The position numbers were made by a program, and so were the translations under genes. A DNA stretch of 64,000 nucleotides from Actinokineospora sp. NBRC 105648 (lineage in GTDB: Bacteria; Actinomycetota; Actinomycetes; Mycobacteriales; Pseudonocardiaceae). Location: NCBI RefSeq assembly GCF_030269645.1, contig NZ_BSTR01000005.1:1-64000 (forward strand), written 5' to 3'. This document shows, piece by piece, positions 26,483-64,000 of this stretch. The notes beneath the pieces were generated by a model. The model saw nothing but the letters and a program-made list of their open reading frames with translations, was not told where the DNA came from and ran no database searches. Each line of letters begins with the position of its first letter. Position 1 is the stretch's first letter.

Positions 26483-27337
26483 GTGGCAATCGGACAGCGA
26501 CGCACCGCAGACCGGATCCAGGTCGGCGCGACCCTCAAGCGCATGCGCCTGGAGGCCGATATCAGCCGAGAGGAGGCGGCGGAGAAGCTGGACTGCACGA
26601 TCACCACGATCTCGAACATCGAGCAGGGCCGGACCCGGGTCAGCCAGGGCAACCTCACGCTCCTGCTGGAGCTGTACCGCTCCCCCGACGACCAGGTGGC
26701 CGACCTGCTCGCGGTGAACCGCCAGGCGCACCGAGCGGTGGCCCGGATCTCGGGAGGCATGGACATCCAGCCCCACCAGCGCCGCGCAGGAGACCTGATC
26801 CGAGCCGCACGCCAGATGCGCTTCTACAGCCCAGAGGTGTTCCACGGAATCCTGCAGGCAGAGAGCTACGCCCGGGCGATCATGGCCCCAAGCGGGCATG
26901 TCACTCCGCTCGTGGAGACCAGATTGCGATACCGGCTCAGCTTGGCGGATGTCCTCACGCGAGAGACGGAGTCACCGCTTCAACTGTGGGCTGTAGTTGG
27001 TGAAGCCACGCTGCGGAAGAACATCGGTGGTCCGGTGGTGATGCGTCAGCAACTCCGCCACGTGGCTGAACTCTGCCGAACGAGGGAGAACGTCACCGTC
27101 CAGGTACTACCGCTCGGGGCCCGTGAGCATGAGCTGATCGGCGCCACGGTCACCATCTACAACTTCGACCGAACGATCCACGAGATCGCCAGCGTGGATA
27201 CGACACTCGGCGACCTGTTCTTCGAGCGAGATTCAACAGTCACCGAGGCGATCAACAAGTTCGATGACGTCCGGTTGAAGGCTCTGGACCCGCTCACGAG
27301 CGTTGATATGATGGAAGACCTCAGTGGCGATCAGTGA
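26483..27337 (+). CDS. XRE-family DUF5753 regulator (Scr1-like) heading three DUF397 genes
   Basis: The protein has 284 residues from the GTG at 26483. The HTH is at residues 10-65 (VGATLKRMRLEADISREEAAEKL and TTISNIEQGRTRVSQGN), followed by a DUF5753 domain with LIRAARQMRFYSPEVFHGIL, QLWAVVGEATLRKNIGG and VTVQVLPLGAREHELIG. In Streptomyces the Scr1/Scr2-type and BldB-linked systems pair such a regulator with a DUF397 protein. Here three DUF397 copies follow directly. A GTG for a longer first DUF397 product overlaps the 3' end of this gene, so they are co-transcribed. Confidence 0.9.
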   Translation: MAIGQRRTADRIQVGATLKRMRLEADISREEAAEKLDCTITTISNIEQGRTRVSQGNLTLLLELYRSPDDQVADLLAVNRQAHRAVARISGGMDIQPHQRRAGDLIRAARQMRFYSPEVFHGILQAESYARAIMAPSGHVTPLVETRLRYRLSLADVLTRETESPLQLWAVVGEATLRKNIGGPVVMRQQLRHVAELCRTRENVTVQVLPLGAREHELIGATVTIYNFDRTIHEIASVDTTLGDLFFERDSTVTEAINKFDDVRLKALDPLTSVDMMEDLSGDQ

Positions 27338-27350
27338 ATCGGGTGACACG

Positions 27351-27554
27351 ATGGCCTTGCGGCCCCACACGTGGACGAAATTCTCCTCCAACGGCAGCTC
27401 CTGCGTCGAGGTCATGCTGACCAGCAGCGAAGTCCTGGTGCGGAACTCCAACCACCCGGACTCAGGCACCGTCGCCTTCACCTTCGCCGAGTGGCAGGCC
27501 CACACCGAAGGCCAGAAGCTCGGCGTCTTCGACCTCCCCGCAGGCACCCTGTAG
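27351..27554 (+). CDS. DUF397 protein, copy 1
   Basis: The 67-residue product starts at the ATG at 27351; a GTG at 27324 would add nine residues and overlap the regulator. It has the family pattern TWTKFSSNGSSCVEVMLTSS, VLVRNSNHPDSGTVAFTFAEW and a final GVFDLPAGTL. DUF397 proteins are thought to bind and modulate the paired DUF5753 regulator. The same leader (GGGTGACACG) precedes all three copies. Confidence 0.85.
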   Translation: MALRPHTWTKFSSNGSSCVEVMLTSSEVLVRNSNHPDSGTVAFTFAEWQAHTEGQKLGVFDLPAGTL

Positions 27555-27575
27555 CCAACCGGATCGGGTGACACG

Positions 27576-27779
27576 ATGGCCTTGCGGCCTCACGTTTGGA
27601 CGAAGTACTCGGACAACGGGAGCAACTGCGTCGAGGTCATGCTGGCCAGCAGCGAAGTCCTCGTCCGCAACTCCAACCACCCGAAGTCCGGCACCGTGGC
27701 CTTCACCCTCGCTGAATGGCGGGCGCACACCGAAGGCCACAGGCTGGGAGCATTCGACCTGCCCGCAGGCACGCTCTAG
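27576..27779 (+). CDS. DUF397 protein, copy 2
   Basis: This copy is 67 residues long and 204 bp including the stop, exactly as in copies 1 and 3. It reads VWTKYSDNGSNCVEVMLASS and NSNHPKSGTVAFTLAEW. It starts 225 bp after copy 1, behind the same leader sequence. It probably binds the same regulator; small differences (YSD, LAEW) may alter affinity. Confidence 0.85.
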   Translation: MALRPHVWTKYSDNGSNCVEVMLASSEVLVRNSNHPKSGTVAFTLAEWRAHTEGHRLGAFDLPAGTL

Positions 27780-27800
27780 TCGACCGGATCGGGTGACACG

Positions 27801-28004
27801 ATGACCTTGCGGCCCAACACATGGACGAAGTACTCCTCCAACGGGAACAACTGCGTCGAGGTCATGCTGACCGACGGCGAAGTCCTCGTGCGCAACTCCA
27901 ATCGGCCCGAGGCGGGTTCCGTGGCCTTCACCTTCGCGGAGTGGCGGGCCCACACCGAGGGCCAGAAGCTCGGGGTCTTCGACCTGCCAGCGGGCACGCT
28001 CTAA
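27801..28004 (+). CDS. DUF397 protein, copy 3
   Basis: The third copy is again 67 residues and starts exactly 225 bp after copy 2. It reads TWTKYSSNGNNCVEVMLTDG and NSNRPEAGSVAFTFAEW. It is followed at once by a bidirectional terminator shared with clpX. The three copies differ at many third codon positions, so the duplication is not very recent. Confidence 0.85.
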   Translation: MTLRPNTWTKYSSNGNNCVEVMLTDGEVLVRNSNRPEAGSVAFTFAEWRAHTEGQKLGVFDLPAGTL

Positions 28005-28090: not shown

Positions 28091-29383
28091 TCAGGCGGAC
28101 TTCTCCCGGCGCTCGCGGCGCGAGGGCTGCCGGGACACGATCGTCGGGTTCACGTTCTCCCGGACCGTCTGCTCGGTGATGACCACCTTCGCCACGTCGG
28201 TGCGGCTCGGGATGTCGTACATGACCGACTGGAGCACTTCCTCCATGATCGCCCGCAGGCCGCGCGCACCGGTGCCGCGCAGGATCGCCTGGTCGGCGAC
28301 CGCCTCCAGCGCCGTCTCGGTGAACTCCAGCTCCACGCCGTCCATCTCGAAGAGCCGCTGGTACTGCTTGACCAGCGCGTTGCGCGGCTCGGTGAGGATC
28401 TGGACCAGGGAGACCTTGTCCAGGTTCGTCACGCTCGCCAGCACCGGCAGCCGGCCGATGAACTCCGGGATCAGCCCGAACTTGATCAGGTCCTCGGGCA
28501 TCGTGTCGGAGAAGAAGTCGGCCGCGTCGATGTCGGCCTTCGAGCGGATCTCGGCGCCGAAGCCCAGGCCGCGCTTGCCGACCCGGTCCTGGATGATCCG
28601 CTCCAGGCCCGCGAACGCGCCCGCCACGATGAACAGCACGTTCGTGGTGTCGATCTGGATGAACTCCTGGTGCGGGTGCTTGCGACCGCCCTGCGGCGGC
28701 ACGCTCGCGGTGGTGCCCTCCAGGATCTTCAGCAGCGCCTGCTGCACACCCTCGCCCGACACATCGCGGGTGATCGACGGGTTTTCACTCTTTCGAGCGA
28801 TCTTGTCGACCTCGTCGATGTAGATGATGCCCGTCTCAGCGCGCTTGACGTCGTAGTCCGCGGCCTGGATGAGCTTGAGCAGGATGTTCTCGACGTCCTC
28901 GCCGACGTAGCCCGCCTCGGTGAGCGCGGTGGCGTCGGCGATGGCGAACGGGACGTTGAGCAGCTTGGCCAACGTTTGCGCCAGGTAGGTCTTGCCGCAG
29001 CCCGTCGGGCCCAGCATCAGGATGTTCGACTTCGCGAGCTCGACAGTCTCTTCACGAGACTCACGGCCCTCCGGCCGGGCGCGGTCACCGGCCTGGATGC
29101 GCTTGTAGTGGTTGTAGACGGCAACGGCCAACGAGCGCTTGGCATCGTCCTGGCCGATGACGTACTGGTCGAGGAACTCGTGGATCTCGGCGGGCTTGGG
29201 CAGCTCGTCGAGCTTCACGTCACCGGCCTCGGCGAGCTCTTCCTCGATGATCTCGTTGCAGAGGTCGATGCACTCATCACAGATGTACACGCCTGGGCCG
29301 GCGATGAGCTTCTTCACCTGCTTCTGGCTCTTCCCGCAGAAAGAACACTTGAGCAGGTCTCCGCCGTCACCGATACGTGCCAT
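28091..29383 (-). CDS. clpX: ClpX, ATPase subunit of ClpXP
   Basis: ClpX unfolds tagged proteins and feeds them to ClpP. The 430-residue protein has an N-terminal zinc-binding domain (Cys 13, 16, 35, 38 in CSFCGKSQ and ICDECIDLC), Walker [13 protein letters not shown], Walker [12 protein letters not shown], the pore loop region [14 protein letters not shown] and sensor GTGARGLR. The ATG at 29383 gives the usual length. It is separated from clpP2 by about 320 bp, as in mycobacteria where clpX also has its own promoter. Nothing is unusual. Confidence 0.97.
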
Positions 29384-29705
29384 GACCGCTGACCTCTGTC
29401 CCCTCCGGCGCACCTGGGGGAAGTGCGCCTGGCTGAATGTCCGGACCGCGTCCGCCCCGGTCACACCGCGGATCGCTCCGCTGCGTGGCCGGCCCGGTCG
29501 CGACCGTTGCCTCCGACGGTACCCGTCCACCCCCGCTCTGCGGGAGAACCTGGTACCCGACGCGGCCGAATCGGGTCGTTGGACCTCATCGCACACCGTA
29601 GGCCGATCCGGGCCGGTGTGTCGGCCCTTTTCGACCGCTCGTCCGCGTCGGGCGCAGGAAACTACGACGACTCGTGCTGCCTTGCCCGGCCGTGCTGGGC
29701 CTCGC
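29384..29705. other. clpP2-clpX intergenic region
   Basis: About 320 bp with no supported gene. It should hold the clpX promoter and possibly the terminator of the clpP1P2 message. I see no strong hairpin with a T-run. Confidence 0.5.
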
Positions 29706-47079: not shown

Positions 47080-47580
47080 TCAGCGCTTGGGGGCGTGGCC
47101 CGCCTGGTCGGCCAGCATGCGCAGGGCGCTCACCAGGCCGCCGATCAGGTCGCCCTCCTTGAAGGACGCGACCATGCTCATGATCGCCAGGTTGCAGCCC
47201 CGGTCGGGCAGGCGGCGCGCCGCCTCGTTGCCCGTGACGATCTCCACCCGGCGCTGGCCGGGGGACACCGCGATCAGGACGGCGTCGGCGGAGCCGGGGA
47301 TGTCGGTGTGCAGGTCCTCGGCGCGTTCGCGGGTGTCCGCGCCCAGGTCGCCCAGGTAGACCGTGAAGCCGATGCCCGTGGCGCGGGAGGAGAGGGTCAG
47401 CGCCTCGTCCAGCCGGGTCAGGGCGACGGTGTTGAACGGGAGGCCGGGCTCGGGGCGGTGGTACTCCTTGGCCACCGAGATGCGACCGCTGGCGGTGCGC
47501 ACGGCGCCGTAGCCGTGTTCCGGGTCCTCGACGAGATTGTCTGTGTCGGCGTCGTGCCGAACGAGTTCACCAGCCACCAC
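47080..47580 (-). CDS. DUF5130 / TPM-domain-like protein (Rv2468c-like)
   Basis: The protein has 166 residues from the GTG at 47580 behind GGGAGGAGCCC. It has GYGAVRTASGRISVAKEYHR, FTVYLGDLGADTRERAEDLH, VLIAVSPGQRRVEIVTGNEAARRLPDRGC (partly quoted) and a C-terminal helix with SMVASFKEGDLIGGLVSAL. The strand-helix order matches the TPM (TLP18.3) fold used by DUF5130. Length matches the 167 residues I recall for Rv2468c. It overlaps the upstream ctaJ-like gene by 14 bp. Function is unknown. Confidence 0.82.
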   Translation of the reverse strand: MVAGELVRHDADTDNLVEDPEHGYGAVRTASGRISVAKEYHRPEPGLPFNTVALTRLDEALTLSSRATGIGFTVYLGDLGADTRERAEDLHTDIPGSADAVLIAVSPGQRRVEIVTGNEAARRLPDRGCNLAIMSMVASFKEGDLIGGLVSALRMLADQAGHAPKR

Positions 47581-47818
47581 GGGCTCCTCCCTTGGCGGTG
47601 CGCGGGCGCGCGGTGTCCGCGTGGTCCGCGTGCGGGGTGTGCTCGGCACCCAGGCCTGCCGGGTTGGCCGTCCACCAGACCGGCTCGTACCCCCACTCCT
47701 GGCCGGGGCGGTAGCGCGGGGCCTTGGCGAACTTGTCCCGCAGGGTCAGCAGGGCGATCACGCCGTAGAGGGCAAGCGGGATCGCCGCGAAGACGAGAAG
47801 GGTCTCGGCGAGCGTCAC
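47567..47818 (-). CDS. ctaJ: CtaJ-like small subunit of aa3-type cytochrome oxidase
   Basis: The 83-residue protein has one membrane helix (LAETLLVFAAIPLALYGVIALLTL) and then RDKFAKAPRYRPGQEWGYEPVWWTANP, a tail pattern I associate with the CtaJ subunit of the actinobacterial bcc-aa3 supercomplex. The GTG at 47818 has no good ribosome-binding site, and the message may be leaderless. It is coupled by overlap to the DUF5130 gene. The other oxidase genes are not in the window, as is usual for this subunit. Confidence 0.65.
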   Translation of the reverse strand: MTLAETLLVFAAIPLALYGVIALLTLRDKFAKAPRYRPGQEWGYEPVWWTANPAGLGAEHTPHADHADTARPRTAKGGARGGW

Positions 47819-48155
47819 AGGCGATACGGTAGCCGACAAGGCCCTGACCGGCCGCGAGGCCTCCTGTGGGTGTGGACACCGCACGGGAGCGAGCCCGCGG
47901 CGCCGCGCCCGTGATCGCGCCGGGTGAGCGGTTGGTGCTCTTTTGGTAAGGCTGATCGGCCGACTGACGTCGTGACTGGTAGCTCTTTGGGCCTATCGGC
48001 AAGGGGCGAACGGCCTCAACTGAGCACGCCGGGGCCCGGAGAGCGGGTTGACGTCTTGTCCGTTACGCATCTGGGTCATAGCTTTCACCTGTACGGCCCT
48101 TGCGAAGTCAACCTTCCGCTCTTTTGATGCGCAACTGCCCTCAGGAGGCTACTCC
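47819..48155. other. upstream region of the GTRVT-repeat gene
   Basis: About 340 bp without a supported gene between the leftward ctaJ-like gene and the rightward repeat gene. A TTGACG hexamer lies near 48049, but I see no well-spaced -10 box. The region ends with AGGAGG at 48143-48148, the ribosome-binding site of the repeat gene. Its length allows for a regulated promoter. Confidence 0.5.
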
Positions 48156-49430
48156 ATGTACACCATCGCTTCCCTCGACGTGGCCATGATCATCACCCAA
48201 ATGGATGACGACACGCAACTGGGTAGCCGGGCGGATCTGGCGACCCGGGGCACTCGGGTCACCAGGGGAACGCGGGTGACCGCAGGCGGCCGGGGCACTC
48301 GGGTCACCAGGGGGACCCGGGTGACCAACACCGAGCGTGGCACAAGGGTTACTCGCGGCACCAGGGTGACGTCGCTGGGCCACATCACGGACGTGCAACG
48401 GGGCGAGCGGCCGGTGAACGGGACCCGGGTCACGCGCGGGACCCGGGTGACGGCGCTGGAGAACGGCACCCGGGTGACCAGGGGAACGCGGGTGACCCGA
48501 GGGACCCGCGTGACCGCCATGGAGTGCGGCACGCGGGTGACCAGGGGTACCCGGGTCACGGCGCTGGCGGGCGAGGGCAAGTGGTTGTTGGAGAACGGGA
48601 CGCGGGTGACCAGGGGGACGCGAGTCACCCGCGGCACCCGGGTCACGGCACTGGAGAACGGCACTCGCGTGACTCGTGGGACCCGGGTAACTCGCGGAAC
48701 CAGGGTCACCGCGCTGGAGTGCGGCACCCGCGTAACCAGGGGAACTCGGGTCACTGCGCTGGAGTGCGGCACGCGAGTGACCCGCGGGACTCGCGTCACG
48801 GCGCTGGAGAACGGCACTCGCGTGACCCGTGGGACTCGCGTCACGCGCGGAACTCGCGTGACCGCATTGGAGTGCGGCACCCGTGTGACTGTGTTGGAGA
48901 ACGGAACTCGCGTGACCAGGGGAACTCGCGTCACGCGCGGCACCCGTGTCACCGCCCTTGAGAACGGCACCCGCGGAACTCGCGTGACCCGCGGGACCCG
49001 TGTGACCGCGTTGAAGAACGGCACCCGCGTGACCCGCGGGACTCGCGTCACGCGCGGGACCCGTGTGACCGCCCTTGAGTGTGGCACCCGTGTAACTCGC
49101 GGGACTCGAGTCACCGCTCTGGAGAACGGGACTCGGGTGACCAGGGGAACGCGTGTCACCCGCGGAACTCGCGTGACCGCGCTGGAATGCGGCACCCGCG
49201 TAACCAGGGGAACCCGCGTCACTCGGGGTACCCGCGTGACCGCGCTGGAATGCGGCACTCGCGTGACCCGTGGCACCCGCGTCACCGCTGAGGAGCGCGG
49301 TACTCGCGTCACCCGCGGTACCCGGGTCACCTCGCAGGAGCGGGGCACTCGCGTCACCCGTGGCACCCGCGTCACGCTGCGGGAACGCGGCACCCGGGTC
49401 ACCTCGGGCACTCGCGTCACCACCGCTTAG
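48156..49430 (+). CDS. GTRVT-repeat protein, unknown function
   Basis: This 424-residue protein starts at the ATG at 48156 with AGGAGG seven bases upstream. Residues 1-31 are unique and partly hydrophobic (MYTIASLDVAMIITQMDDD). From residue 32 to the end it consists of about 51 copies of GTRVT joined by single Arg or by short linkers such as ALEN, ALEC, NTER, AEER and SQER. One early linker is longer (SLGHITDVQRGERPVN) and one contains KWLLEN. Each GTRVTR hexad should favour an extended strand with alternating Thr/Val and Arg faces, so a repetitive beta structure with a very basic surface is plausible. About eight Cys occur, all in the EC linkers. Codons for the repeats vary mostly at third positions, which argues for selection on the protein. 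There is no export signal I would trust. No family is known to me. Confidence 0.8.
   Translation: MYTIASLDVAMIITQMDDDTQLGSRADLATRGTRVTRGTRVTAGGRGTRVTRGTRVTNTERGTRVTRGTRVTSLGHITDVQRGERPVNGTRVTRGTRVTALENGTRVTRGTRVTRGTRVTAMECGTRVTRGTRVTALAGEGKWLLENGTRVTRGTRVTRGTRVTALENGTRVTRGTRVTRGTRVTALECGTRVTRGTRVTALECGTRVTRGTRVTALENGTRVTRGTRVTRGTRVTALECGTRVTVLENGTRVTRGTRVTRGTRVTALENGTRGTRVTRGTRVTALKNGTRVTRGTRVTRGTRVTALECGTRVTRGTRVTALENGTRVTRGTRVTRGTRVTALECGTRVTRGTRVTRGTRVTALECGTRVTRGTRVTAEERGTRVTRGTRVTSQERGTRVTRGTRVTLRERGTRVTSGTRVTTA
48249..49427 (+). repeat. 18-bp hexad repeat array (GTRVTR)
   Basis: The DNA is built of 15-bp GTRVT units joined either by an Arg codon (18-bp period) or by 9-12-bp extra linkers. 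There are about 51 full units and one broken unit (GTR only, near 48970). Synonymous changes such as ACTCGGGTC, ACGCGGGTG and ACCCGCGTG alternate, so neighbouring units are rarely identical over more than about 15 bases. Confidence 0.9.
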
Positions 49431-49440
49431 TCCTCCCGGT

Positions 49441-50115
49441 TCAGGCCGCCGGCTCGCCCAGGTAGGGCAGCCACAGCGGATCAGCGTCGACCACCCCGGC
49501 CAGCAGCCGCCAGTGCGGGCCCCGTGGCGCCGTCGGAACGACGCGCAGCCGCCAGCCCAGTTCGGCGAGCATCTTGTCCGCTTTGCGGTGGTTGCACTTC
49601 GCGCAGCACGCCACGCAGTTCTGCCAGGTGTGCTGCCCCCCGCGACTGCGGGGAATCACATGATCTATGGTCTCCGCTCGACCACCGCAGTACGCGCAGC
49701 GGTAGCGGTCGCGGTGCATCAGACCTGCCCGGGTCAGCGGGACCCGGCCGCGGTAGGGCACGCGGACGTAGCTGCTGAGCCGGATCACCGAGGGGATCAC
49801 CACACTCGAGGTCGCCGAGTGCACGACCATGCCCGCCGGGTCACCGTGCACGACCTCGGCCTTCCCGCACACCACGAGCACGACGGCCCGGCGCAGCGAG
49901 AGCGCCGTGAGCGGCTCGAAAGTGGTGTTGAGCAGGAGAACCCGGCGCCTGCCCCAGGTGGTCACCGGGGGGATGAGCGGGGGTGGCGCGGGCACGCCGA
50001 CGAAGCTCGGGGCGTCTCGGGCGGGCGCGGGAGCGGGGCCCGGATCCGGGCACAGCGCTGGCCGCGGCACGTGCCCAGTGGGCGCGCCGAAGCGGGTCGG
50101 TTGTCGCTCTGGCAC
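49441..50115 (-). CDS. HNH endonuclease-domain protein (Rv2469c-like)
   Basis: The protein has 224 residues from the GTG at 50115 behind GGAGGTGGTCGA; this length is close to the 222 residues I recall for Rv2469c. After a Pro-rich N-terminal part it reads VLLLNTTFEPLTALSLRRAVVLVV, then the HNH module RYRCAYCGGRAETIDHVIPRSRGG, NCVACCAKCNHRKADK, with two C-x2-C zinc knuckles and the D-H of the active site. It may nick or repair DNA; the family has unknown biology. Its stop is 10 bp from the stop of the repeat gene, so the two are convergent. It is divergent from mscS. Confidence 0.88.
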   Translation of the reverse strand: MPERQPTRFGAPTGHVPRPALCPDPGPAPAPARDAPSFVGVPAPPPLIPPVTTWGRRRVLLLNTTFEPLTALSLRRAVVLVVCGKAEVVHGDPAGMVVHSATSSVVIPSVIRLSSYVRVPYRGRVPLTRAGLMHRDRYRCAYCGGRAETIDHVIPRSRGGQHTWQNCVACCAKCNHRKADKMLAELGWRLRVVPTAPRGPHWRLLAGVVDADPLWLPYLGEPAA

Positions 50116-50279
50116 TCGACCACCTCCACCGGTGCTGCCTAAGTCGACCACAAACCAGGCCCGGTGCGCACGTGTGTTATCCGACGTGTCCCGGATCACC
50201 CGGGAAAATCCCGGTGAACGGCTCCGCCGGGCGCACCCGTTTCGCCCCGTTCGACCGGGGCCGGCTATCGTCGGCGCCG

Positions 50280-60144: not shown

Positions 60145-63100
60145 CTATCCGCCGCTGTCGATGTCCGCGGGCGCCCATTCGGACGAACGGTGCCTGCCGC
60201 GGATGCCACTGGGCGGGGTGGGCAACCCGGAGAGATCGGTCCGGCGCGCCTCCCCCGGGGCGGGCTCGGCGGCGCGCGCGTCGGTCGTCCAGCGATCGGA
60301 CAACCGGTCGGCGGGCTGCCAGTCGTCGGTGTCCCCGGTGGGGAAGGACCGCCACGTCCCGGTGGCCTGGCCCACGGGTTGCCCACCTCGCGCGTCGGTG
60401 GATCTTGCGTCGGTGTCTCTTGCGTCGGTGTTCGAGTCGGCGGAGTGCCTGCGTTGGGCGCGGGAGGTGGTGGAGCCCGGCCAGTTCGGCTGCGGATCCC
60501 GCTCGTCCGCCGATGCGCCGCGCGGGTCTGGCCACTCGGTGTGCGGATCTTGGGCGTGCGCCGAGCTTTGCCAGGGGGCGGAGTCCGCGCCTGGGTGATC
60601 CCGGTCGGCCTCGCCCGGCCAGGGCTCGGCGGGCGGTTCGGGGGCGCGCCTGCGGCCGGTACCGGGGGCGCGGTGGTGACCACTGCTCGACGGGTCGTCG
60701 GCGTGCGCGGGCGGGACTGCGGCGTGTGCGGACGGCGACTGGCGGTGCGCGCCGTCGGCGAGTGCGGGAGTGGACGGGGGGTCGGCGGGCAGGAGGTCGA
60801 GAGTCGAGGGGTTGGCAGGCGACGGGTTGGCAGGCGAGGGGTCGGCTGCGGGCCAGTGCTCGCTGAGCTGCCGCAACTCCGGCGAGCGGAGCAGGTCGGC
60901 CAGCTTCACAGGTTCAGTGAGGTCGTCGACGTCCTCGTCGTCGCCGGTGGACGTGTCGGGGGTGGGGGCCGGTGGCCAGCCCTCGTCGGACCAGCGGGCG
61001 GCGTCGGACTCGGCGTCACCGGTGGGCCCACCGTCGGGCTGGGTCGCCTGGAACGCGACCAGCGCCTCGGCGAGCAGCTCGGCGAGACCGCTGGAGTGGG
61101 TCCGGTCCCGCCTGCTGCTGGGCGGCCGCCGCCTGCGGGTGGGCAGGGTCTGGCGATCCGCCGCTGGATCGCGGGCGGGATCGTCCCGCTGGTCCGGATC
61201 GTCTCCCTGGTCCGGATCGTCACGGTGGGCTGGATCGTCACGGTGGTCAGCCGGACTCGCGTCCCCGGCTGTGGACGTGACCGGGGTCGGTGTGGGCTCG
61301 GGGTCGGGCGGCGCGGACAGCCGCGCGGAGTCGGGTTCGGCCGGGGTGGTGGCGGCGAGGGCGGACGCGCGCGGCAGGCCGCGCAACCGGGCCGCGAAAT
61401 CGATGGCCCGGCGGTCGGCGATGTCAGCCGCCCGGGCTGCCTCCGGGGTGGGCTTGGCGACAGTGCCCGCGTTGGCGGTGTTGGAGTTTTCCCTTGTGCC
61501 AGAGGGTTTCTGTTGCGTCGCGACCGGGTCAGCGGACTCCGGCCTGGCGCGACGACCAGTGGAAGAAGGCTCCGCGGTGGACTGCGGGTCTGGGTGGGTG
61601 GGCTCGGGTTGGACGCGACGAGCGGGCGCGTCTGCTGTCCTGGGTGCGCCGGGTGCCGCGGCTGTCTTGGGTGCGTCGAGTGCTGCGGCGGTCGGCAGCG
61701 CGGTGGATTCGGGTGCGTCGGGCTTGGCTCGACGACCGCCCGCGGCGGTGTGAGTGGTCGGCGGGGGGTCGACCTCGGGGGTGCCCGGGGCGCCGGGAGT
61801 GGGGATCTCGGACGGGTCCGGGGGTTCGGGGATCTCCGGAGTCGGGGGCTCCGGGGTCTCAGGGCTCACCGTGCGGCCGGGGGGCTGGGGGATGTCCGGC
61901 CCGACGGGCGGCTCGGGGATCGTGGCGCGGGCCTGGCTCGCGGGGGTGCTGGAAGCGGTGGACTCCTGGGCGGGAGTGTCAGCGGTTGACGTCGGGGCAC
62001 CTAGGCGGGGCGCGTCCAAAGGACCGGACAGGTGCGGCCCGGGCTCTGCGCGCCGGGCGATGACGGCGGAAGGGGTGAGGGGGGCGGTGGGGCCCTCGTC
62101 CCAGGGGAAGCTGTCGAACACCCCCATCGACGGGGGCAGCATCGGGGGCGCGGGCAGATCGGTGCCGACCAATGCGTTGGGGTCGAAGTAGTACTCGTCG
62201 TCGTCCGGGGCGCGACGCCTGCCGCCCGATCCCTCAGCGCTGACACCGAAGCGGCTCAGGACGGACTGGGCATCGGCGGTGCCCTCGGAGTCCTTCGGGG
62301 ACACCGAACCCGGATCATCCACAGTGGACTCACCGGCCGCCTTGGCTCGGCGGGCAGCCCGGCGACCGTGCGCGGTGGCGGCGTCGATCTCCTGCGCGCC
62401 AATGCCTCCAGGGGTGGCAGCCGTGGACGTGGCGGCGGGGATGTGCCCGACATCGCCATGTCGCGGAGTCGTGCCGGGGGTGTCAGAGGTGTCGCTACGC
62501 CGGGGCGTGCCAGCAGCGGTGTCGGGGACCGCACTACGCCCCGCGGGGACGGACGTATCGGCGGTATCGCTACGCCGCACCGTGGTGGCGGGGGTGTCGG
62601 CAGCGTCGCTACTCCGCGCCGTGCCAGCGGCTGTATCGGCGATGTCGCTGCCCCATGGTGTAGTGGCAGGGGTGCCGAGGGGATCGCCGCGTCGCGCGGT
62701 GGCAGCGCTATCGCTGCGGCGCGGTGAGGTGGCCGGCCGGTCGACAGCAGCGCTACGACGCGGCGTGCCGGCAGAGGCGTCGGTGGTGCCACTGCCCCAC
62801 TGCGTGGTGGCAGGAGTATCCGCGGTGTCGCTACGGCGTGGGGTGGTTGGCAGGTCTGCCGCGGCATTGCGCTGCGGCGTTCCTGCGGAGGGATCGGTGG
62901 TGTCGCTGCGCCACTGCGTCGTGGCAGGGGTGTCGAGGAGGTCGCTGCGGCGGGCCGGGGTATCGCTGGGGCTTGGCGTGGTGGCCGTGGCCGGTGGGTG
63001 GTGGGCACCGGAGGCGGTGCCGGTGTTGGGGGTCGGTTGGTCAGAGGTGTCCGGGGTGTTCGCCGGTGGTTCGGCGGCGTGGCTTCGGCGCACGCCGCCG

Positions 63101-64000
63101 GAGAAGTGGTGGACAGCGGCATCGCCGGCGGGTGAGCCCTGCCGAGGAATGGCGGTAGACCGGCGTGGGCGGCGGCGCTGTTCGTCCGACATCGGTGGCT
63201 GGTTGGTGTTGTCGGAGGTGAACTCCGCGTTCGCTCGGGCCCGCAGCTCGGACAGCAGGGCTTCGGCGGTGCCCTCGGTGGCCGAGTCGGCGCTCAGCCG
63301 TGCCTGTATCCCGGACGGCCTGGCGGTCTCCCGCGCGCGCCGCCCCGGCGGGTCGGCGATCGCCCAGGGACTGTCTTCGACCGGCGAGTCGACGGCGGTG
63401 TCCGCGGCCGCCTCGGCGGAGCGGGGTGGCCGGTGCGCCGTGGACGAATCACCGACGGGTTCGGACCGGTCGCGGCTCGACGACCACGATGGGGCCCTCG
63501 TGGAGTCGGCGGGCGCAGAACCGGCGAGCGCTGAGTCAGCGAGCGTGGAGTCGGCGGGCGCGGAACCGGCGGGCGTGGAGTCGGCAGGTGTGAAATTGGC
63601 GGGCTTGGAGTCGGCAGGCGCGTGCTCTGCCGACGGGTTGGCCGCTGGGCCGTGGCTCGGCGACCGGGATGAAGTTGTCGCGGGGTGTGTGGGTGTCTGC
63701 TCGGCGGGCGACTCGGCTATTGGTTCCGCGGCGGCGTGGCTCGGCGACCAAGGTGCGCGGGTGGTTGAGTCCGTGGGGGGCCCCACGTTCGACGAGTCCT
63801 TTGTCGACAGTGACGGGTCCGTGGTGTCGAACCGCCTTCTTGGCGATGGCCGCGAGTCCGAGGTGGCAGGGGTGAGCCGGTCGGGACCCTGGGCGGACGG
63901 CGAGCCAGCGGCTGCTGTCTGCTGGCGCAGGGCCTCGCGGGCCGCGAGGACGCCGGGGCTCGCGGCGCGTTTGCCGGGCAGGATCGGCAGGGTTGGTGAG
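60145..64000 (-). CDS. very long low-complexity protein, 5' end outside the window
   Basis: The frame is open from the right edge of the window to a stop at 60145, at least 1285 residues. The part nearest the edge reads LPGKRAASPGVLAAREALRQ. After that it is dominated by Ser, Thr, Pro, Ala, Asp and Glu. A block around residues 350-500 of the visible part repeats RRSDTADTPATT and SAGTPRR-like units of roughly 19 residues. Later parts have PEPPTPEIPEPPDPSEIPTP, then DDPAHRDDPDQGDDPDQRDD, a Q/R-D-D-P repeat. No membrane helix or catalytic motif is visible. It could be a disordered scaffold or surface protein. It is upstream of gdh on the same strand; whether it continues into a folded domain cannot be seen. 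Confidence 0.65.
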   Translation of the reverse strand, partial: SPTLPILPGKRAASPGVLAAREALRQQTAAAGSPSAQGPDRLTPATSDSRPSPRRRFDTTDPSLSTKDSSNVGPPTDSTTRAPWSPSHAAAEPIAESPAEQTPTHPATTSSRSPSHGPAANPSAEHAPADSKPANFTPADSTPAGSAPADSTLADSALAGSAPADSTRAPSWSSSRDRSEPVGDSSTAHRPPRSAEAAADTAVDSPVEDSPWAIADPPGRRARETARPSGIQARLSADSATEGTAEALLSELRARANAEFTSDNTNQPPMSDEQRRRPRRSTAIPRQGSPAGDAAVHHFSGGVRRSHAAEPPANTPDTSDQPTPNTGTASGAHHPPATATTPSPSDTPARRSDLLDTPATTQWRSDTTDPSAGTPQRNAAADLPTTPRRSDTADTPATTQWGSGTTDASAGTPRRSAAVDRPATSPRRSDSAATARRGDPLGTPATTPWGSDIADTAAGTARSSDAADTPATTVRRSDTADTSVPAGRSAVPDTAAGTPRRSDTSDTPGTTPRHGDVGHIPAATSTAATPGGIGAQEIDAATAHGRRAARRAKAAGESTVDDPGSVSPKDSEGTADAQSVLSRFGVSAEGSGGRRRAPDDDEYYFDPNALVGTDLPAPPMLPPSMGVFDSFPWDEGPTAPLTPSAVIARRAEPGPHLSGPLDAPRLGAPTSTADTPAQESTASSTPASQARATIPEPPVGPDIPQPPGRTVSPETPEPPTPEIPEPPDPSEIPTPGAPGTPEVDPPPTTHTAAGGRRAKPDAPESTALPTAAALDAPKTAAAPGAPRTADAPARRVQPEPTHPDPQSTAEPSSTGRRARPESADPVATQQKPSGTRENSNTANAGTVAKPTPEAARAADIADRRAIDFAARLRGLPRASALAATTPAEPDSARLSAPPDPEPTPTPVTSTAGDASPADHRDDPAHRDDPDQGDDPDQRDDPARDPAADRQTLPTRRRRPPSSRRDRTHSSGLAELLAEALVAFQATQPDGGPTGDAESDAARWSDEGWPPAPTPDTSTGDDEDVDDLTEPVKLADLLRSPELRQLSEHWPAADPSPANPSPANPSTLDLLPADPPSTPALADGAHRQSPSAHAAVPPAHADDPSSSGHHRAPGTGRRRAPEPPAEPWPGEADRDHPGADSAPWQSSAHAQDPHTEWPDPRGASADERDPQPNWPGSTTSRAQRRHSADSNTDARDTDARSTDARGGQPVGQATGTWRSFPTGDTDDWQPADRLSDRWTTDARAAEPAPGEARRTDLSGLPTPPSGIRGRHRSSEWAPADIDSGG

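Follow-up and report, generated by a model that had tools for sequence, protein, structure and literature searches.

Pentapeptide-repeat proteins are built from the unit A[DN]LxX, and in the precursors of multicore RiPPs and of peptide pheromones a short head precedes a series of many identical short segments. The Pseudonocardiaceae include the makers of erythromycin, rifamycin and vancomycin-type antibiotics. In style, the known protein nearest to the one considered here is AfsS of Streptomyces, 63 aa long and containing three 12-residue repeats that are considered crucial (PMC2267785); two further papers state that S. erythraea is without an afsS homologue (PMC6880422, PMC3733707). Here we describe a Pseudonocardiaceae family made of one repeated pentapeptide. 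Full-text searches of the open-licence literature, which are not proof of absence from print, returned no description of the family or its unit, and it is seemingly undescribed.

The array gene lies on the plus strand of Actinokineospora sp. NBRC 105648 at 48156-49430 of the window, by which we mean the whole stretch of 64,000 nucleotides that was analysed. It runs from an ATG at 48156 to a TAG at 49428-49430, encodes 424 aa and is preceded by the Shine-Dalgarno sequence AGGAGG (48143-48148, +), a similar sequence being kept in most orthologues. A head of residues 1-31 (48156..48248, +), in which no obvious signal peptide is seen by eye, leads into the array (48249..49421, +), and the protein closes with TA before the stop (49422..49430, +), the place at which many relatives carry an ssrA-like ...[DE][FYLV]xLAA ending. 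The first-pass annotation had claimed about 51 exact GTRVT pentads, a 31-residue head, an AGGAGG start signal, a single stop and a strongly positive net charge. All of this holds: exact counting gives 51 units, the first at residue 32, and the charge is +65. Shuffling the protein 1000 times produced at most three GTRVT (mean 0.12). Successive units are spaced by 6 (29 times), 9 (18 times) or, once each, 12, 17 and 21 residues, with spacers of one residue (29), four residues (18, mostly ALEN-, ALEC- or xERx-like) or more (three); the long spacers come after one, two or three units, at no fixed turn.

These 51 units are written in 40 distinct DNA spellings. Third codon positions show a mean pairwise difference of 0.51-0.70, whereas first and second positions differ by 0, except for 0.113 at the first base of Arg (CGN/AGG), which is synonymous. 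Because third positions vary between units while first and second positions do not, apart from the synonymous Arg base, the codon pattern points to selection acting on the peptide and not to a recent amplification of the DNA. In three units Arg is spelled AGG, and there the antisense frame reads VTLV, as against VTRV in the 48 others; it is therefore the plus frame that is kept exact. We also looked for homologues in which the frame is lost, but the orthologues keep it, and on sequence grounds the array gene is confirmed as a real protein-coding gene.

The initial view that the protein belongs to no known family was upheld. The window protein has nothing over cut-off in Pfam, matches only far below cut-off in NCBIfam, and no match at E 0.1 among PDB sequences. 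Of the three GTRVT members scanned, none falls under a Pfam or NCBIfam family, and across eight members all NCBIfam matches fell below cut-off while Pfam gave neither a Hexapep nor a pentapeptide match.

A search with the window protein matched 26 of 61 genomes: its own, 15/15 congeners, 10/21 other Pseudonocardiaceae genera and 0/24 other families of the order. One of the ten other-genera matches (G036, an 11,184-residue frame) is the wrong place, the promoter pattern finding the true locus elsewhere. In its own genome the array occurs at one place only, the other two matches being its own antisense. One congener, G003, agrees with the Actinokineospora spheciospongiae record (L193) in both head and copy number. 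Fetching loci by the promoter pattern with its -35 gave at least 118 named stretches, and among the matches listed the array is present in 115 of 118 (79/80 and 36/38). The array-less ones are chance sites in Pseudomonas (L168) and Oscillospiraceae (L208), and L205, which the locus end truncates. Charge, spacing, tails and promoters were counted in 79 named loci (L101-L180 without the chance match L168) or in their 74 complete proteins; the other 38 stretches were used for motif and tail ends only.

In the window, the array gene stands between a divergent DUF5130/TPM gene (47080..47649, -; Pfam PF17174, 2.5e-39) and a convergent HNH endonuclease gene (49441..50199, -; Pfam HNH_5, 5e-13), both of which serve as synteny anchors. 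Among the matches listed, 80 named loci have DUF5130 upstream in 70 cases and HNH downstream in 71, and loci without an anchor are cut by the locus end, except for the chance match L168 and for L136, where HNH was not found within 3.5 kb. The window flanks, which also hold MscS-, globin- and alpha-glucosidase-like genes, have homologues that recur at named loci, six neighbour genes doing so among the matches listed; in the same set, complete members stand alone and are 49-470 aa long. Gene order and similarity thus identify the array as an orthologous family of the Pseudonocardiaceae at one locus, DUF5130 < > array > < HNH, for which vertical inheritance is the best explanation.

Wide spread in actinobacteria was rejected on a class sample of 394 genomes, of which 18 matched, three of them family genomes; six of the 15 non-family matches were read (L270, L272, L273, L274, L278 and L280) and hold no array, with at most three motif-like matches in any frame. 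A mobile element was likewise rejected, a 53-residue array piece having no counterpart among 50,697 phage and 72,556 plasmid records, in which the BLAST low-complexity filter may hide repeats. Two records appear to be misnamed: L131, a contig labelled Candidatus Melainabacteria, has a family array beside family neighbour genes, and L152, labelled Nocardia sp. NRRL S-836, has the array and neighbour genes and looks like Lentzea.

Two other regions of the window are repetitive. Three tandem 225-bp copies (27338-28003), of which one frame reads WTKYSSNGSNCVEV-like segments, presumably as in DUF397 proteins, directly follow an XRE-type regulator-like ORF (26483-27337, +). A very long Ser/Thr/Pro/Ala-rich low-complexity ORF (60145-63999, -; 1213 aa from its GTG) overlaps several short tandem repeats and runs off the window.

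Each genome has a single, uniform unit, which is specific to its lineage. Among the matches listed, it follows the pattern [GS]-[TVI]-R-[VI]-x, with R-[VI] constant across all dialects. Specifically, and within the same set, GTRVT is used by Actinokineospora, Amycolatopsis, three of four Prauserella, Saccharomonospora, Actinophytocola and Herbihabitans; GTRIT by Gandjariella and one relative; SVRIT by Lentzea, Saccharothrix, Actinosynnema, Umezawaea, Goodfellowiella and Solihabitans; GVRIS by Saccharopolyspora, Actinopolyspora and Crossiella; GVRIH by Streptoalloteichus; GVRIE by one relative; GVRVT by Prauserella shujinwangii; and both GIRVN and GVRVN by Kutzneria. Placed on a quickly built HNH tree with 70 rows, in which 29 of 67 inner branches are under 80, the dialects need seven changes, the least possible being six; shuffled dialects needed 29.7 on average and were as low in 0/200 cases. 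Dialect therefore follows descent, and this, together with the agreement of the copies within one array, suggests one co-evolving reader.

Around the motif, much else is free to change. In 74 named arrays of at least eight units, 1233 of 1269 unit-like 5-mers (three of five residues matching with R, or four of five) are exact among the matches listed. Third-position diversity in the three main motif classes is 0.37-0.56 on average, compared with 0.008-0.037 at first and second positions, the Arg first base being left out. Copy number ranges from 2 to 60, and L012 and L016, congeners whose heads are nearly identical, have 27 and 60 units. Spacers vary across the family in chemistry, from Arg- to Asp-rich, and in length: spacing is mostly 6-10, with 6 dominant in GTRVT members and 8 and 9 in SVRIT and GVRIS orthologues, and spacings of 6-10 are mixed inside single proteins. 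Net charge in the SVRIT orthologues is negative in 15/21 and ranges from -10 to +23 among the matches listed. The idea that the Arg charge binds polyanions was not borne out: orthologues at the same locus keep the motif and not the charge, which argues against a general polyanion binder.

Upstream of the window gene lie a -35-like TTGTCC (48056..48061, +), a -10-like TAGCTT 17 bp further on (48079..48084, +) and a conserved 22-bp element, TTTCACCTGTACGGCCCTTGCG (48083..48104, +), which covers the expected transcription start. The family promoter can be written as TTGNNN-N17-TANNNT followed by the 22-bp element TTTCACCTGTACGGnCCTTGCG. At pattern-fetched loci the invariance of the element and the -35 is partly forced by the pattern; the unforced figures come from the 23 loci chosen by protein similarity alone, in which CTTGT and TTTCACCT are invariant upstream in 23/23. 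Among the matches listed, TTG[TC]-N16-18-TANNNT is present in 79/79 named loci (17 bp in 76, 18 bp in three), compared with 3/16000 random windows, and TAGCTT in 55/79; CTTGT belonged to the search pattern of these loci and the -10 did not. The element slides by 0-3 nt relative to the -10 and is therefore a separate signal over the expected transcription start, the simplest reading being that it is a probable operator. A known RNA element was rejected (Rfam gave five matches, the best at E 0.16 and none reaching gathering), as was a known promoter motif: CACCTGTACGG or its complement occurs in literature with titles on other subjects, none on actinobacterial regulation.

When two mismatches were allowed, 34/37 family genomes had exactly one element site and one site came up in the 24 others; the reversed element, as a control, gave 1. 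In a larger draw, exactly one site was found in 66/79 family genomes, as against 2/318 outside, with six sites for the reversed element in all 397 genomes. Both outside sites are without an array, while the 18 further family loci that were read have one. The array gene is thus present in most family genomes sampled, namely the 66/79 with the element and eight of the other 13, in which it stands beside HNH. Fifteen family genomes without an element site were considered. Eight still have the array beside HNH; in seven, the flank read showed none beside HNH, four of them (L251, L257, L260 and L261) having both DUF5130 and HNH in place. The array is therefore dispensable to some genera. At array loci without an element site, the best element match has three mismatches in two loci and 6-7 in four others measured. 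Three loci of genus g45 (L249, L250 and L253) have kept the array although their best match to the element has 6-7 mismatches, and they offer a natural test of what the element does.

The C termini hold a further signal. Among the matches listed, 39 of 74 complete named proteins end in LAA, as do 24 of 54 distinct ten-residue tails, 22 of these 24 in the form [DE][FYLV]xLAA. Only LAA was counted, because HNH neighbours also often end in AA (37/41). LAA ends 0/149 distinct tails of six neighbour genes (Fisher 1.5e-16 against the array tails, a value that ignores phylogeny). ARAGORN found 28 tmRNA tags in 28 family genomes, 28/28 ending in LAA; that of the window's own genome is AKTNSRADFALAA, and G016 has the tag ANKSRADFALAA and an array protein ending in GARGDFALAA. 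The window protein ends in RVTTA, without an LAA tail, and the tail is absent from the listed Actinokineospora and Saccharopolyspora members and from others; fast degradation therefore cannot be family-wide. Where it occurs (24/54 distinct tails), an encoded tmRNA-like ending would be an unusual natural case of a gene-built ClpXP signal. A clpX-like gene, recognised by eye, lies about 19 kb from the array (28091-29596, -), probably as old synteny of the chromosome region rather than as a link.

Collectively, the DNA points to a coding gene with orthologues at one locus, a motif uniform in each genome and changing with lineage, a promoter with a 22-bp element, and frequent ssrA-like tails. The best explanation, to which we give a probability of roughly 45%, is a vertically inherited multivalent array of one linear motif, [GS]-[TVI]-R-[VI]-x, read by a co-evolving partner. 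We favour it because the 5-mer is kept exact, spacers, copy number and charge drift, and the copies change together in each genome. The array protein would stay in the cytosol, and a dedicated regulator would act on the 22-bp element as its operator. A single motif copy may bind one copy of a folded, putative partner whose groove co-evolves with the motif, and the array would titrate or cluster this partner. Where an LAA tail is present, ClpXP would destroy the array and make its effect a pulse; the promoter element would keep supply tight, and the ssrA-like tails would make for fast removal in part of the family. Against a linear-motif array, AlphaFold predicts strands at many motifs, which a disordered array need not show, and charge-hydropathy places one of six members tested among folded proteins. 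More tentatively still, we suggest a new class of bacterial hub protein, in which a lineage code word is repeated 2-60 times and read by a co-evolving intracellular receptor, supply is set by a once-per-genome 22-bp switch, and imitation of the tmRNA tag in many lineages would see the protein soon destroyed. With its conserved promoter and place, its presence in most family genomes sampled and no description found in open-licence print, the array gene is a candidate regulator or scaffold of Pseudonocardiaceae biology. Because the code word differs by lineage, it should lead directly to the putative partner, home and foreign dialects serving as mutual controls.

A folded rod is the alternative that fares best, and we consider it unlikely. 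Each motif would form one short strand of a beta-solenoid or beta-prism, in which every second residue points inward and G/S sit at the corners; the length of the rod would follow from copy number, and the protein would be structural or filament-forming. AlphaFold modelled the window protein with a mean pLDDT of 61.8 and a pTM of 0.43, placing short strands at many units, with pLDDT 70-90 for 156 of 424 residues, block values of 73-82 near both array ends and a low-confidence helix at residues 5-20 of the head (block pLDDT 56). The strands, the 156 residues and the pTM speak for a rod; the low to middling confidence (113 residues under 50) and the irregular unit spacing do not. The repetitive beta fold proposed in the first-pass annotation is neither borne out nor refuted by these results. 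Profile comparisons also favour it at first sight. Left-handed hexapeptide helices (3fsx, E 0.0026) are a weak match to the Amycolatopsis-type GTRVT profile A2, and VgrG in the PDB (E 0.043) is a weak match to the SVRIT profile; two of eight scanned members, both SVRIT, exceed the Pfam cut-off of 30.7 for DUF2345 (L140, 50.9 bits; L142, 38.6 bits), which we take to be the VgrG C-terminal region. Since two different folds are matched for one family, we read the DUF2345 and hexapeptide-helix matches as probable period matching of short repeats. Such repeats give chance profile matches: L140 is also just over DUF3540 (28.0 vs 27.9) and L142 over Spiralin (28.3 vs 25). Further, orthologues would need two solenoids, of period 6 and of period 8-9, spacings of 6-10 are mixed within proteins, the long spacers of the window protein come at no fixed turn, and five of the six members plotted lie on the disordered side of charge-hydropathy.

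We regard as improbable a polyprotein precursor, cut by ClpXP or another protease into lineage-specific peptides that would be exported or modified and act as a pheromone or RiPP. The short variable head, the many identical pentads, the lineage dialects and the protease-tag-like C termini would suit such a precursor. However, the window flanking genes (DUF5130, HNH, MscS-, globin- and alpha-glucosidase-like) include none known to encode a modifying enzyme, a transporter or a receptor, the spacers differ in length and residues and so offer no constant site for cleavage, and a signal peptide is not obvious.

Slightly more doubtful again is that the array is the Pseudonocardiaceae counterpart, unrelated in sequence, of AfsS as a small repetitive regulator of secondary metabolism and nutrient stress. 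The repetitive nature of AfsS and the stated lack of a homologue in S. erythraea fit this, and 10 Saccharopolyspora/Halosaccharopolyspora-type loci carry the array among the matches listed, a set that does not include S. erythraea itself. AfsS-type proteins in three genomes taken to be probably Streptomyces (L264, DAHAT; L265, NNHGT; L266, DFHAT) likewise have nearly one unit per protein, differing between proteins. Against this, their units share by eye no pattern with [GS][TVI]R[VI]x; AfsS-type genes come, again by eye, after a gene ending in AfsR-like TPR sequence, which the array does not; and upstream of L264 and L266 are GTTCATC/GTTTATC repeats, not the 22-bp element. Homology to AfsS was rejected, as unit, locus (DUF5130/HNH neighbours, not afsR) and upstream DNA all differ.

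Least credible by far is that the array is no gene, being tandem-repeat DNA open by chance or coding on the opposite strand: an antisense ORF of 424 aa does lie at 48149-49423, but variation in the plus frame is synonymous only, including the Arg CGN/AGG usage, Shine-Dalgarno sequence and promoter are kept, the orthologues are in frame, and in the 74 complete named orthologues among the matches listed the antisense frames are fully open in at most 30 (30, 22 and 0; other sense frames, 10 and 26), and a DNA-level artefact or an antisense gene was rejected on the codon-position pattern and the open-frame counts.

Compared with described systems, the array family shares single features with several. 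Left-handed hexapeptide beta-helices such as that of DapD resemble it in the period of 6 of most GTRVT arrays and in the weak profile match, but a strict six-residue period is not kept, since SVRIT and GVRIS orthologues have 8-9 and none of the eight members has a Pfam Hexapep match. DUF2345 is matched by the two SVRIT members and not by GTRVT members, and array proteins stand alone, without other spike domains, so they are not part of a T6SS spike protein. Unlike multicore RiPP and pheromone precursors, the array is without a constant processing site, and no biosynthetic or transport gene was recognised next to it. Its [DE][FYLV]xLAA termini are like the genomes' own ssrA tags on ClpXP substrates; in contrast to tmRNA tagging, the tail is gene-encoded and present in part of the family only, and degradation by ClpXP is putative. 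AfsS/AfsR2 is likewise a small actinobacterial short-repeat protein, with a unit near-uniform in each protein and differing between the three found, but it has three or four units where the array family has up to 60.
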